Below the pieces are notes generated by a model. It was given only the letters and a program-made list of their open reading frames with translations, had not been told where the DNA came from and searched no databases. DNA of 64,000 nt from Sapientia aquatica (GTDB lineage: Bacteria > Pseudomonadota > Gammaproteobacteria > Burkholderiales > Burkholderiaceae_D), in assembly GCF_004358105.1 (NCBI RefSeq), contig NZ_SMYL01000004.1, positions 1 to 64,000 of the forward strand, written 5' to 3'. The position numbers and the translations under genes are program-made. Each line of letters begins with the position of its first letter. Positions within the stretch are counted from its first letter, which is position 1. Positions 19,477 through 62,861 of this stretch are shown piece by piece.

Positions 19477-19505
19477 CACGCCCTCCTTTCAGTTGAAAAA
19501 AGTAA

Positions 19506-19600
19506 CGTGAGCGCGGTTGCGGTAGATAATTCCAAGCCTGGCAAAAATGTACTTGATACAACAACCTCAAGCAATTTCGTCGCAACGCTCCTTGGAGACC
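19506..19600 (-). promoter_or_regulatory. SAH riboswitch upstream of ahcY
   Basis: Read on the minus strand the leader has the conserved SAH aptamer order: CCAAGGAGCGTTGCGACG (from about 19597), a variable arm, GCCAGGCTTGG (19543-19533), then ACCGCAACCGCGCTCAC ending at 19507. GGAGCG/CGCTC and CCAAG/CTTGG pairings give the known pseudoknotted core. It lies about 25 bp before the ahcY ribosome binding site. SAH binding normally turns these leaders on. Confidence 0.9.
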
Positions 19601-59435: not shown

Positions 59436-61292
59436 TTACGGAGCACTGCACATGCAATGCGTCACCACGCTAAAGGCTTTGGTGCGGTCGGTCATGTCCG
59501 CTAACCACAACATATCGTTGGTCACATCTTTGGCTGCTTGCGGTGGAATTCCGTTAGTTGCTAAATTAGTGCGGAGCAATCGAGTGGCAATGTCACCTGC
59601 CGACACATCAAAAAATTTAAAGAATTTTTCTAATCCGGTCGGTTCAGTTTCAATGTAATCCAACGAATAGCTGCCAGTTAGCTTAGCGCGCTTGGCGGCG
59701 GATTTAATCGCATCAGAATAACTTCCCAAGGTATCGACCAAGCCGCGTTCTTTGGCTTGCTGTCCAGTCCAAACCCGACCTTGAGCCACTTCGTCGATTT
59801 TTTCAGCAGTGGTGTTGCGCGCTTTAGCTGCCTTGCTGGTGAAATTGGCGTAAATATGGTTGACGCTTTGTTGCACTAACTCGGCAAATCGTGGATCGAT
59901 TGGGCGAGTCGGATCATAGCCGCCGCGCAGCCAAGTCGTCGTGGTGCCGCCGCTGTGCACACCGAGCTTATCGAGCGCTTTGTCAGCAGTCGGCAATAGC
60001 GCAAACACACCGATTGAGCCCGTAATCGTGGTTGGATCGGCTATCACTTCGTCCGAGCTCATGGATATCCAATAGCCACCGGATGCAGCCACACCGCCCA
60101 TGGACACCACTACTGGCTTGCCGGCTTCGCGGGTTAATTCAAGTTCGCGCCGAATTAATTCGGAACCGAAGGCGCTACCGCCGGGGGAATTGATCCGTAA
60201 CACCACCGCTTTGATTTGATCGTTTTCACGGGCTTTACGAATTAGGTTTGCCGTCGATAAGCCGCCGATCGAACCCGAAGGAGCTGTGCCGTCGCTGATT
60301 TCACCTTCCGCCACGATCACGCCAATAGCGTCACTCAAAGGATTCATCGGTGTTTTTTGACGGGCTAAATAATCTTCAAAATTGATCTGGCGGAAGCTTT
60401 TAGTTTGGTCGTCGCGCGCACCGAGGGCCAGCATAATTTGACGCAATTCATCGCGAGTTTTTAAGGCATCCACTTGTTTGGCATTCACGGCTAACTGCGC
60501 CATGTCGCCATTAACCTGTTTGACCAAGTTCGGCAAATCGTCGATGGTGCGCATAATGCTGCCTGCTTCGAGCTTGCGCGATTTCTCCACATCATCGGTG
60601 TAGGATTTCCACAAGTCATTGTATAAATACGCTTCAGCCTCCGATGCCGCCGCCGAAGGGCCGTTTGCGATATAAGGCTCGGCAAAGCTCTTATAGGTGC
60701 CGACACGCATTAAATTGACGGTAATGCCCAGTTTATCGAGCGCGTCGCGGTAGTAGTTGCGATAGCCGCCAAAACCTTCTAAACCAACCATGCCCATTGG
60801 GTGCAGAAATACTTGATTGGCGTGCGCTGCGAGTAAATATTGACGTTGGTTGTAGCTCGAACCCCAAGCGATAATATTTTTGCCGCTGGCTTTGAAACGA
60901 TCTAAGGCGCTGGCAATTTCACGTAGCATCGGCAGACCAGCGTTTTGCATTTCGTCTAATAACAACACCATGCTGGTGATTTTTGGATCTTTTGTAGCGG
61001 CATCAATCACGGTGAGCACATCGCGCAACTGAGCGTAATCTTTCTTGTCACCTTGCGCTTGCAGCAACATCAAATCACGCGCGCTAGCACTTTGTTGCTC
61101 GACAATATTGCCGCGCAAATCAAGAATTAGGGCAGTTTTGTCTGCGAGCTTTTTAGTGCCACCGCTAAACAAACCGACCAAGATAAAAATAATAAGGATG
61201 AGGAAAAGCAAATTTAATAAGGCCTTTCTCCCTCCCTCAAGCACACGCCACAAAAAACCAGCACTAGTTTTGGCAAATCGAATTACTGACAT
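59436..61292 (-). CDS. sppA: Signal peptide peptidase SppA, 67-kDa type
   Basis: 618 residues, two tandem S49 domains. An N-terminal membrane helix (ALLNLLFLILIIFILVGLF) anchors it in the inner membrane. The catalytic Lys is in LMRVGTYKSFAEPY of the first domain, and the Ser in SMGGVAASGGYW of the second, as in E. coli SppA. It degrades leftover signal peptides in the membrane. The C-terminal tail ends in HCMCSAP. It stands alone; the upstream gap carries two sRNA candidates on the same strand. Confidence 0.96.
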   Translation of the reverse strand: MSVIRFAKTSAGFLWRVLEGGRKALLNLLFLILIIFILVGLFSGGTKKLADKTALILDLRGNIVEQQSASARDLMLLQAQGDKKDYAQLRDVLTVIDAATKDPKITSMVLLLDEMQNAGLPMLREIASALDRFKASGKNIIAWGSSYNQRQYLLAAHANQVFLHPMGMVGLEGFGGYRNYYRDALDKLGITVNLMRVGTYKSFAEPYIANGPSAAASEAEAYLYNDLWKSYTDDVEKSRKLEAGSIMRTIDDLPNLVKQVNGDMAQLAVNAKQVDALKTRDELRQIMLALGARDDQTKSFRQINFEDYLARQKTPMNPLSDAIGVIVAEGEISDGTAPSGSIGGLSTANLIRKARENDQIKAVVLRINSPGGSAFGSELIRRELELTREAGKPVVVSMGGVAASGGYWISMSSDEVIADPTTITGSIGVFALLPTADKALDKLGVHSGGTTTTWLRGGYDPTRPIDPRFAELVQQSVNHIYANFTSKAAKARNTTAEKIDEVAQGRVWTGQQAKERGLVDTLGSYSDAIKSAAKRAKLTGSYSLDYIETEPTGLEKFFKFFDVSAGDIATRLLRTNLATNGIPPQAAKDVTNDMLWLADMTDRTKAFSVVTHCMCSAP

Positions 61293-61520
61293 TGCAACCC
61301 CTTGTATTGAGCAGTCTGTTAAGTATAGGAAACGCTGATTAAATTGAGAAGAAGCATTAAATTTGCGTCAATTTAGCGCCAATGTGAGCAATTCAATGGC
61401 GAAATTGAACCAGCAAGACGTTAACCAATGTTCCCAAGCTTATTTTTGGAAAATTGTTCAGATTGTAAGCTAGATAACGGAACTAGCGGGCGGGAATACG
61501 AGGAAATTATCCGTTTGGGC

Positions 61521-61587
61521 AAAAAAAAACCCACGACCTGATGGTAGTGGGCTAAGTCCAATTCCTTAAGAGGTTTTGGAGGAGACA
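61521..61587 (-). ncRNA. Candidate small RNA with anti-Shine-Dalgarno motif, copy A
   Basis: A minus-strand promoter, TGGGCA-17-TATAGT (-10 at 61599-61594), points to a start near 61587. The RNA of about 65 nt begins CUGUCUCCUCCAA, where CUCCUCC is complementary to Shine-Dalgarno sites. UCCAA and UUGGA form a hairpin enclosing ACCUCUUAAGG. A terminator follows: CCCACUACC-AUCA-GGUCGUGGG (one mismatch) then nine U (61529-61521). The layout matches CUCCUCC sRNAs of other proteobacteria, which occur in tandem. No ORF is present. It may also influence sppA as its leader. Confidence 0.7.
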
Positions 61588-61677
61588 GGCGCAACTATAA
61601 TCACCTCCCAAACCGTTGCCCACTTTATTTTTAGCATATCCGTTATTAATAATTAATATAACGCAACATGAAAGCTT

Positions 61678-61746
61678 AAAAAAAAACCCACGACCTGTTG
61701 GTGGTGGGCTTAAATCCAATTCCTTAGGAGGTCTTGGAGGAGACAG
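61678..61746 (-). ncRNA. Candidate small RNA with anti-Shine-Dalgarno motif, copy B
   Basis: Copy B lies 157 bp from copy A. The promoter is TTGGTA-17-TATAGT (-10 at 61757-61752), with a start near 61746. The RNA starts with CUGUCUCCUCCAA and the same UCCAA/UUGGA hairpin, now enclosing ACCUCCUAAGG, which mirrors the 16S rRNA 3' end. The terminator stem CCCACCACC-AACA-GGUCGUGGG leads into nine U (61686-61678). Promoter, aSD motif, hairpin and terminator are all kept while the spacers differ, which argues for selection. Confidence 0.7.
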
Positions 61747-61910
61747 GTGTAACTATAATCGTCTCACAGCCATTTACCAAGTCACTTTTTCTCATATCAG
61801 TTATTCGGTTTTCACATAACAAGGTTATCGTAACCTTTGCAAAGCATTAGCGAAATTTTGTTAAGTGAAAAATTAAAAACATCGACTTATATTTGCTTAA
61901 GTAGCAAAAC

Positions 61911-62861
61911 CTAAGCAAAAAAATCTTGCGCACCCACAGTAAAACCTTTCAAAAATTCCGCGGTAGGCAAACGCTTACCGCCCGGCTTTTGCAGTTCAAG
62001 CAAACTTAACGCCCCTTCCCCGCAGGCAACAATCAACTGCTGATCTTTCAGAATCAGTTGCCCCACTTGGGCTGAAATCGGTTTTTCAACCACTTCAGCA
62101 CGCCAAATTTTTAAGGTGACGCCGTTCAACACCGCCGACGCCGCTGGGAAGGGATTAAATGCGCGGATTTTTTGCGCCAGTAGTTGAGCAGGCAAATTGA
62201 AATCCAGCGCCGCTTCTTCTTTGCTAATCTTTGCCGCGTAATTTACACCTTCGTCGGGCTGAGGGGATGCGGTAATGCTTCCATCAAGCAATTGTTGCAA
62301 TGTATCAACAATCATTTCACCACCCAGCCTAGCCAATTTATCGTGCAAGGTCGCGGTGCTGTCATCGGCAGCAATTGGCATGGATTCCATTAACAACATG
62401 GCGCCGGTGTCTAGGCCACGATCCATTTGCATAATCGTGATGCCAGTTTGCGCATCACCCGCCTCAATTGCACGGTGTATCGGCGCGGCCCCGCGCCAAC
62501 GCGGCAACAAGGAAGCGTGAATATTCAAGCAACCCAGTGGCGGGATGGACAACACCGACTCTGGCAGGATCAGCCCGTAGGCCGCGACCACCATCACATC
62601 GTGCGGAGTTGCTTTCAGCAGCTTATGCGCCTCCTCCGCCTGCTCTGGATATTTGCCATCCAAGCGCAACGAAACGGGCTGAGCGACAGGAATTGCGTGA
62701 TCAAGGGCGAATTGTTTTACTGCCGACGGATGCAATTGCATGCCACGACCAGAAGGCCGATCGGGCTGAGTAAGCACTAACACAACCTCGTGTCCAGCGG
62801 CGTGAATGGCGGCTAACGCGGTGGCGGCAAATTCGGGAGTTCCGGCGAAGATAACTTTCAT
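61911..62861 (-). CDS. fmt: Methionyl-tRNA formyltransferase
   Basis: Formylates initiator Met-tRNA. 316 residues. The N-terminal formyltransferase domain has [16 protein letters not shown], the catalytic set in [21 protein letters not shown] with N and H, and Asp in a later [17 protein letters not shown] block. The C-terminal tRNA-binding OB-like domain follows. The start overlaps the def stop by 4 bp (ATGA), the classic def-fmt pair. Confidence 0.97.

Follow-up and report, generated by a model that had tools for sequence, protein, structure and literature searches.

In the window, the 64,000-nucleotide stretch of Sapientia aquatica contig NZ_SMYL01000004.1 that was analysed, two small units lie one behind the other on the minus strand between the genes fmt and sppA. 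The original prediction had placed twin sRNA genes at this position, and Pfam confirmed the two neighbours as a formyltransferase gene and an S49 peptidase gene of the sppA type. Both units consist, in the same order, of a promoter, a body starting with UGUCUCCUCCAA, hairpin 1, hairpin 2 and a U run. The promoter, the UGUCUCCUCC 5' end, the UCCAA/UUGGA hairpin and the terminator that had been predicted are present in A and B, which match the Rfam family RF02278 with E-values of 1e-6 and 1.5e-7, respectively (451-base stretch against all 4227 Rfam families). The features are given below; palindrome positions are numbered from the first base of UGUCUCC, and R1 is a covariance model built from the 44-member alignment described further on.

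59436..61292, minus strand: S49 peptidase gene, SppA type, downstream neighbour of the twins (Pfam Peptidase_S49)
61521..61589, minus strand: sRNA A, with UGUCUCC (61587) at its 5' end and the U run at its 3' end, length about 67 nt (RF02278 40.1 bits; R1 65.7 bits, A being in the R1 training set; fold)
61528..61553, minus strand: terminator hairpin of A, then U run (fold and covariation)
61557..61580, minus strand: hairpin 1 of A, UCCAA/UUGGA with inner CCU/AGG (fold and covariation)
61578..61587, minus strand: anti-Shine-Dalgarno 5' end UGUCUCCUCC of A (alignment of 44 members and predicted fold)
61594..61622, minus strand: putative promoter of A, TGGGCA-17-TATAGT (consensus match; same register in relatives)
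61636..61646, minus strand: palindrome ATAACGGATAT of A, centre -54, proposed regulator site (register fixed in 62 of 104 upstream regions)
61678..61747, minus strand: sRNA B, with UGUCUCC (61745) at its 5' end and the U run at its 3' end, length about 68 nt (RF02278 43.4 bits; R1 66.9 bits, B being in the R1 training set; fold)
61684..61711, minus strand: terminator hairpin of B, then U run (fold and covariation)
61715..61738, minus strand: hairpin 1 of B, UCCAA/UUGGA with inner CCU/AGG (fold and covariation)
61736..61745, minus strand: anti-Shine-Dalgarno 5' end UGUCUCCUCC of B (alignment of 44 members and predicted fold)
61752..61780, minus strand: putative promoter of B, TTGGTA-17-TATAGT (consensus match; same register in relatives)
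61794..61804, minus strand: palindrome ATAACTGATAT of B, centre -54, proposed regulator site (register fixed in 62 of 104 upstream regions)
61911..62861, minus strand: fmt, upstream neighbour of the twins (Pfam formyl transferase domains)

Units A and B form direct-repeat blocks with a spacing of 157-158 bp, in line with the distance of about 157 bp stated originally. The statement that the functional parts are kept while the spacers differ was likewise borne out, with an identity between A and B of 91% in the bodies, 69% in the promoter modules and 50% in a 28-base sample of the upstream spacer. Both twin promoters match the consensus at 9 of 12 positions; taken alone, this match is weak, because the 618-base region has four such sites compared with 1.5 (sd 1.3) in shuffled sequences. 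The folds predicted for the two twins reach -23.2 and -21.0 kcal/mol (z -3.1 and -2.8), and in that of B the first seven bases of the 5' end are unpaired while the next UCC opens the stem. A simple terminator scan of the 618-base region returned no terminator, whereas the predicted folds and the Rfam alignment do show one; the negative scan is outweighed because fold and covariation support the terminator hairpin. The sequence ACCUCCUAAGG in B had been likened to the 3' end of 16S rRNA. This applies to its ACCUCCU, which we take to be the anti-Shine-Dalgarno sequence, but not to the rest; moreover, the CCU is paired in the predicted fold and copy A has CCUCUU.

As a check of coding potential, the 67-aa frame on the plus strand (61616-61819) was compared with Pfam and gave no match at E up to 0.001. 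The plasmid collection contained no match to the twin locus. Elsewhere in the window, a SAH riboswitch (RF01057) was found at 19502-19599 on the minus strand with 47 bits, above its cut-off.

Relationship to RF02278 and other sRNAs

For both twins, the best Rfam match was RF02278, 'Betaproteobacteria toxic small RNA' (43.4 bits for B and 40.1 bits for A), and both align to the whole model (positions 1-64). Neither twin reaches the gathering cut-off of 50 bits, and a scan of the whole window at the gathering threshold did not list them. The copy at the same locus of the sister genome G001 (C170:3037-3105) scores 52.0 bits and is above the cut-off. Because the scores of the twins stay under 50 bits while this copy exceeds it, we call the twins, on the basis of sequence comparison, divergent relatives of the RF02278 'toxic' or 'double-hairpin' sRNAs of Betaproteobacteria. 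The pair is a divergent tandem example, itself new, of an already known kind of sRNA, and the Rfam cut-off overlooks such genus-level subgroups of the family.

The genome of S. aquatica has four RF02278 places at E<0.001, none above the cut-off, namely the twins, C33:317981-318043 and C3:53816-53876. At E up to 1, 53 of 59 genomes (this one and relatives) contained a match, with up to 26 matches in a single genome, weak ones included; matches above the cut-off were obtained in 36 of the 59. As 8 of 14 control genomes also matched at E up to 1 and none of them above the cut-off, only strong matches are informative.

The cuckoo or CcsR sRNAs of Alphaproteobacteria carry a CUCCUCC motif and tend to occur in multiple copies, and CcsR is linked to a DUF1127 gene. 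The twins have the motif and the multicopy habit in common with them, a likeness noted in the original prediction; however, the nearest family is RF02278, no Rfam match to a cuckoo-type family was obtained, and the neighbours are fmt and the S49 peptidase gene rather than a DUF1127 gene. Membership in this group was therefore rejected. The comparison with the Neisseria siblings NmsRA and NmsRB (RF02877 for NmsRb) holds as an analogy, since these are also tandem siblings with anti-Shine-Dalgarno action, which control metabolism (PMC5362039). It does not extend to membership, given that only copy A matched RF02877, with 24.5 bits (E 0.1) against a cut-off of 52; the control of the Neisseria RNAs is also reported to involve RelA (PMC5362039).

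Closer counterparts are ncS03, ncS05, ncS27 and ncS62 of Burkholderia cenocepacia, members of RF02278 that share with the twins the two hairpins, the UGUCUCCUCC 5' end, the terminator, the multicopy occurrence and the anti-Shine-Dalgarno segments. From the norm of this family the twins differ by their scores (43.4 and 40.1 bits against 50), by their arrangement as a tandem pair behind fmt and by the inner CCU/AGG in the first loop. S17 and S17S of Bordetella pertussis have the same kind of 5' end and loop as the twins. S17S reportedly represses genes at the ribosome binding site and is excised by RNase E from a longer transcript (PMC11722255). The twins have the palindrome promoter described below, which S17-like bodies rarely carry.

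Conservation, structure and genomic distribution

The alignment comprised 44 members. The five genus genomes contributed 14 of them, and the other 30 came from relatives, each being the best match of its genome, so that these 30 represent a selection of strong hits. The sequence UCUCCUC is invariant across all 44. The consensus structure comprises 13 pairs in two helices, with 97.3% of the cells paired compared with 80.7% in shuffles, and pairing falls to 25-46% when the partners are slid by 1-3 columns. Covariation was found in both helices: 9 of the 13 pairs change on both sides, a number reached by 5 of 500 shuffles. A covariance analysis over relatives had been suggested with the original prediction, and its outcome is in favour.

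Scanned with R1, the five genus genomes yielded 14 hits at E up to 0.001, which are included in the training set of the model; across the order, 65 of 150 genomes had an R1 match at E up to 1e-5. Copies lie directly downstream of fmt in all five genus genomes (two in G000, three in G001, one in G002, two in G003 and one in G004), followed next by sppA within the fetched locus in four of them; G031 likewise has an fmt-linked copy. Pairwise identity did not resolve position-specific orthology between the twins and the pair in G003. At 80 named fmt loci of other species, a copy was found at E up to 1 in just two cases (L064 and L066), and the fmt-linked position is thus particular to a narrow group. 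The best Fmt matches of the host are from Noviherbaspirillum, Lacisediminimonas and Herbaspirillum, from which we infer that the organism belongs with the Oxalobacteraceae. RF02278-type RNAs also occur in clusters, with several copies within 16 kb in G009 (C113:125971-141581), three copies at 185-base spacing in G018 (C1:961093-961529) and three behind fmt in G001 (L045, L049, L053).

These data bear on two alternative explanations. Since the twins are located on the same strand as both neighbours, and their terminators could end the fmt mRNA, they might represent cis elements, either attenuators or 3' ends of the fmt or sppA transcripts, instead of free RNAs. With a copy at only 2 of 80 fmt loci of other species, relatives at many other places and a conserved promoter module in front of each twin, we judged this unlikely. 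The units are near-identical, as would also be seen for a dispersed DNA repeat of the REP or MITE kind without RNA function, an explanation that is very improbable in view of the covariation in two helices, the invariant UCUCCUC, the conservation of the same place across the genus and the mere four places at E<0.001 in the genome. Sequence comparison instead supports what had been proposed at the outset, that is, autonomous, related, multicopy sRNA genes on the minus strand with an anti-Shine-Dalgarno 5' end.

Predicted pairing with translation start regions

RNAs of the RF02278 family are expressed as short RNAs in relatives and inhibit the growth of E. coli when cloned (PMC4603805). For ncS27, overexpression is reported to slow growth and the antisense RNA to speed it; 55-80% of the predicted interactions of double-hairpin RNAs are located around gene starts, and the predicted pairing covers ribosome binding sites (PMC5688073). 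S17S directly represses a translational fusion and leaves the exponential growth of E. coli unimpaired, i.e., it is described as not toxic (PMC11722255).

The pairing potential of the twins was assessed in a sample of 464 kb with 297 long frames, with the first ATG taken as start. At -12 kcal/mol or better, the 5' segment paired with 12 start regions and 2 gene interiors (of 297). At -10 kcal/mol, the numbers were 27 and 12, while for 30 shuffled segments the count of start regions averaged 18 and did not exceed 26. The target enrichment of the 5' segment at start regions is thus modest, and the loop segments showed no enrichment in the same 297 frames. The starts predicted as targets include those of a PfkB-type kinase (L172) and an MFS-type transporter (L166), both assigned by eye from the first 60 residues. 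A special seed match to the commonest Shine-Dalgarno flavour of the genome was also considered but not supported, with GGAGACA found before 3 of the 297 sampled starts (0.4 expected) and GGAGAAA before 7. By analogy with the relatives, blocking of Shine-Dalgarno sites is the likely mechanism of the twins.

Alternatively, the sRNAs could mainly titrate a protein (e.g., Hfq or another RNA-binding protein) or the ribosome rather than pair with chosen mRNAs. Such a role would be consistent with the large number of near-identical copies in a genome, the short CU-rich stretch that does not vary and the lack of target enrichment for the loop site, whereas the preference of the 5' segment for start regions over interiors at -12 kcal/mol and the specific target effects reported for relatives (PMC10987360, PMC11722255) argue against it, and we regard it as rather unlikely. 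Hfq is encoded in the host genome (E 1.6e-29).

A palindrome in fixed register upstream of the promoters

To the 44 aligned members we added 60 further strong RF02278 hits, which resulted in 104 upstream regions. An imperfect palindrome, ATATC-N-GATAT (at least 7 of 10 positions), has its centre at -54 in 40 regions and at -53 in another 22, which makes 62 of 104, both twins included. In shuffled regions, a best match of at least 7 within the ten-base span from -58 to -49 occurred in 6.0% (314/5200). On its 3' side the palindrome is followed by an A-rich stretch, a -35 element of the type TTGGAC, GCAGAC or similar and a -10 element of the type TATAGT, CATAAT or similar.

The occurrence of the palindrome between -58 and -49 depends on the type of body, with 30/36 for UCCAA stems, 22/31 for UCUAU, 4/5 for UCCAU and 5/9 for others, whereas S17-like bodies rarely have it (2/23). 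Their low count is consistent with the reported release of S17S by cleavage of a longer RNA (PMC11722255). A common upstream motif has been described for three of the four B. cenocepacia homologues (Sass et al., 2017; PMC5688073). The palindrome promoter common to the twins and many relatives appears to be a new finding. Neither the palindrome nor the LysR association described below was part of the original prediction; both were found in the follow-up analysis.

Association of the promoter module with a LysR-type gene

From the 62 sRNA promoters with the palindrome in register we dropped one near-identical copy and built a sequence-only model, R2, on the remaining 61. In the S. aquatica genome, R2 had three hits at E<0.001, namely the two twins and a site at C3:54639-54694. 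This third site is flanked on one side by a LysR-type gene (C3:54763-55740) and on the other by a divergently oriented unit of small proteins; past that unit lies the fourth sRNA of the genome (C3:53816-53876). The same LysR-side site is present in G002 and G003. LysR-type proteins commonly act on a divergent neighbour, and the position of the module matches this expectation.

The R2 module was found at E up to 0.05 in 29 of 35 family genomes (G000-G034), and a LysR relative with at least 65% identity in the same 29, both being absent from the other six (G010, G012, G014, G017, G024 and G033); these counts ignore shared ancestry. The best LysR matches at E up to 1e-40 in the six genomes were 52% identical in G014, 36% in G024 and 33% in G012, with none in the others, and G012, G014, G024 and G033 still have RF02278 members above the cut-off. 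The module lies inside the divergent intergenic region of the LysR gene itself at 22 of 29 loci in the whole-genome scan and at 26 of 29 when the scan was limited to the LysR and module loci (216 kb), the four added sites being weak (E 0.012-0.042); this limited scan revealed no LysR-side module in G004, G005 and G013. From the module start to the LysR start there are 28-110 bases in 23 of the 26 cases and 169, 302 and 442 bases in the rest. A palindrome of at least 7/10 anywhere in a 34-base span was present on the LysR side in 24 of 26 cases compared with 25% in shuffles. The LysR-divergent unit includes an R1-type sRNA further along the same strand at 13 of 29 loci (E up to 0.0035); of these sRNAs, the two in G000 and G002 belong to the R1 training set.

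The product of the unit divergent from LysR is usually a small protein, about 100 aa long, that contains a membrane-like stretch and ends in a conserved sequence resembling SQPNLAAELRxLAARG (L238, L239, L240, and the LysR-adjacent loci among L284-L303, L316 and L317); the frame in the S. aquatica genome has just 62 aa. The LysR-divergent small proteins tested matched no Pfam family over the cut-off.

We further inspected 37 module sites not beside sRNAs of the RF02278 search, of which 34 were picked by eye from the family scan and three came from the own-genus scan, at least eight weaker sites being left out. They comprise 21 LysR-adjacent sites, one second module in the G030 unit, two sites with an sRNA directly after them (L305, L315) and 13 with neither neighbour. 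Three of these 13 (L293, L311, L313) precede related small proteins, and the one from L313 matches DUF3563 (PF12086, E 6.9e-13). Other members of the promoter set may be small proteins of this kind.

Among the 150 genomes of the order, a LysR match at E up to 1e-80 was found in 13. LysR relatives of 49-61% identity occur outside the family in 9 of the 150 genomes, from four families; 4 of these 9 loci have weak R2 sites, and in G133, from another family, an RF02278-type sRNA lies divergently about 185 bases from the LysR start. None of 26 non-family sRNA loci had an R2 match, the sole matches in that search being L064 and L066, which speaks against generality. S17-like bodies were seen at 16 of the 25 inspected loci among the 26. 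As far as these comparisons indicate, RF02278-type RNAs outside the family mostly occur without this LysR gene.

The nearest curated names for the C3 LysR protein are BsrA (217 bits, cut-off 480) and LeuO (167 bits, cut-off 262), the best NCBIfam matches, and it stays below both cut-offs. Its best PDB match is 1uth, a LysR-type regulatory protein (E 6e-49). No published link between a LysR-type protein and these RNAs was found in a search that covered few subscription papers, probably not including a 2019 study on ncS27, so that the link may be in print elsewhere. The available text of PMC5688073 does not mention LysR, and the mention of LysR in the available text of PMC6321483 concerns the target of another sRNA.

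It is also conceivable that the twins are RF02278-type RNAs with a module that either binds another regulator or simply serves as a strong sigma-70 promoter including an A-rich, UP-like segment; the LysR-divergent unit would then be just another member of the set. In keeping with this, module sites also precede other small-protein genes, 13 of the 37 sites adjoin neither a LysR gene nor an sRNA, and a common history of the module and the LysR gene within one clade is conceivable. However, plain sigma-70 promoters do not contain a palindrome in fixed position, the same six family genomes lack both the module and a LysR relative of at least 65%, and at 26 of 29 loci the module is found in the divergent region of the LysR gene itself. 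We hold this alternative at somewhat below even odds. The C3 LysR-type protein is proposed as the most likely regulator of the sRNA paralogues on these comparative grounds.

Proposed mechanism

Our preferred reading, to which we assign a probability of roughly 70%, is that the twins are independent sRNA genes of the RF02278 type that block Shine-Dalgarno sites and are jointly switched at the palindrome, with the LysR-type protein as the most likely regulator. The two tandem genes would each be transcribed independently into a double-hairpin sRNA of about 68 nt. A sigma-70-type promoter would start each RNA at or next to UGUCUCCUCC, and hairpin 2 would end transcription. As suggested by the relatives and the modest enrichment observed here, the 5' end would pair in trans with Shine-Dalgarno regions of the GGAGGAGACA kind, with the result that ribosome binding is blocked. 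A dimeric regulator bound at ATATC-N-GATAT upstream of the -35 element could switch the paralogues together, as the fixed and conserved palindrome suggests. The comparative data point to the LysR-type protein whose divergent promoter has the same module, here on contig C3, as this regulator.

Implications for the sRNA family

How the accumulation of these sRNAs is controlled has been stated as unknown for Burkholderia cenocepacia (PMC5688073). The palindrome and the LysR association turn this question into one gene deletion and one binding assay. On the comparative evidence, we see about an even chance that one LysR-type regulator resembling LeuO and BsrA governs, in Oxalobacteraceae-type bacteria, a regulon of many anti-Shine-Dalgarno double-hairpin sRNAs, the fmt-sppA twins included, and of small membrane proteins via ATATC-N-GATAT about 54 bp before the RNA, so that a single signal-sensing protein would dim the translation of many uptake and metabolism genes at once. 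If this is true, the divergent unit of the regulator, often ending in such an sRNA, would be the core of the circuit, and a single regulator would govern the sRNA paralogues as a set; this might partly explain the retention of so many similar copies.
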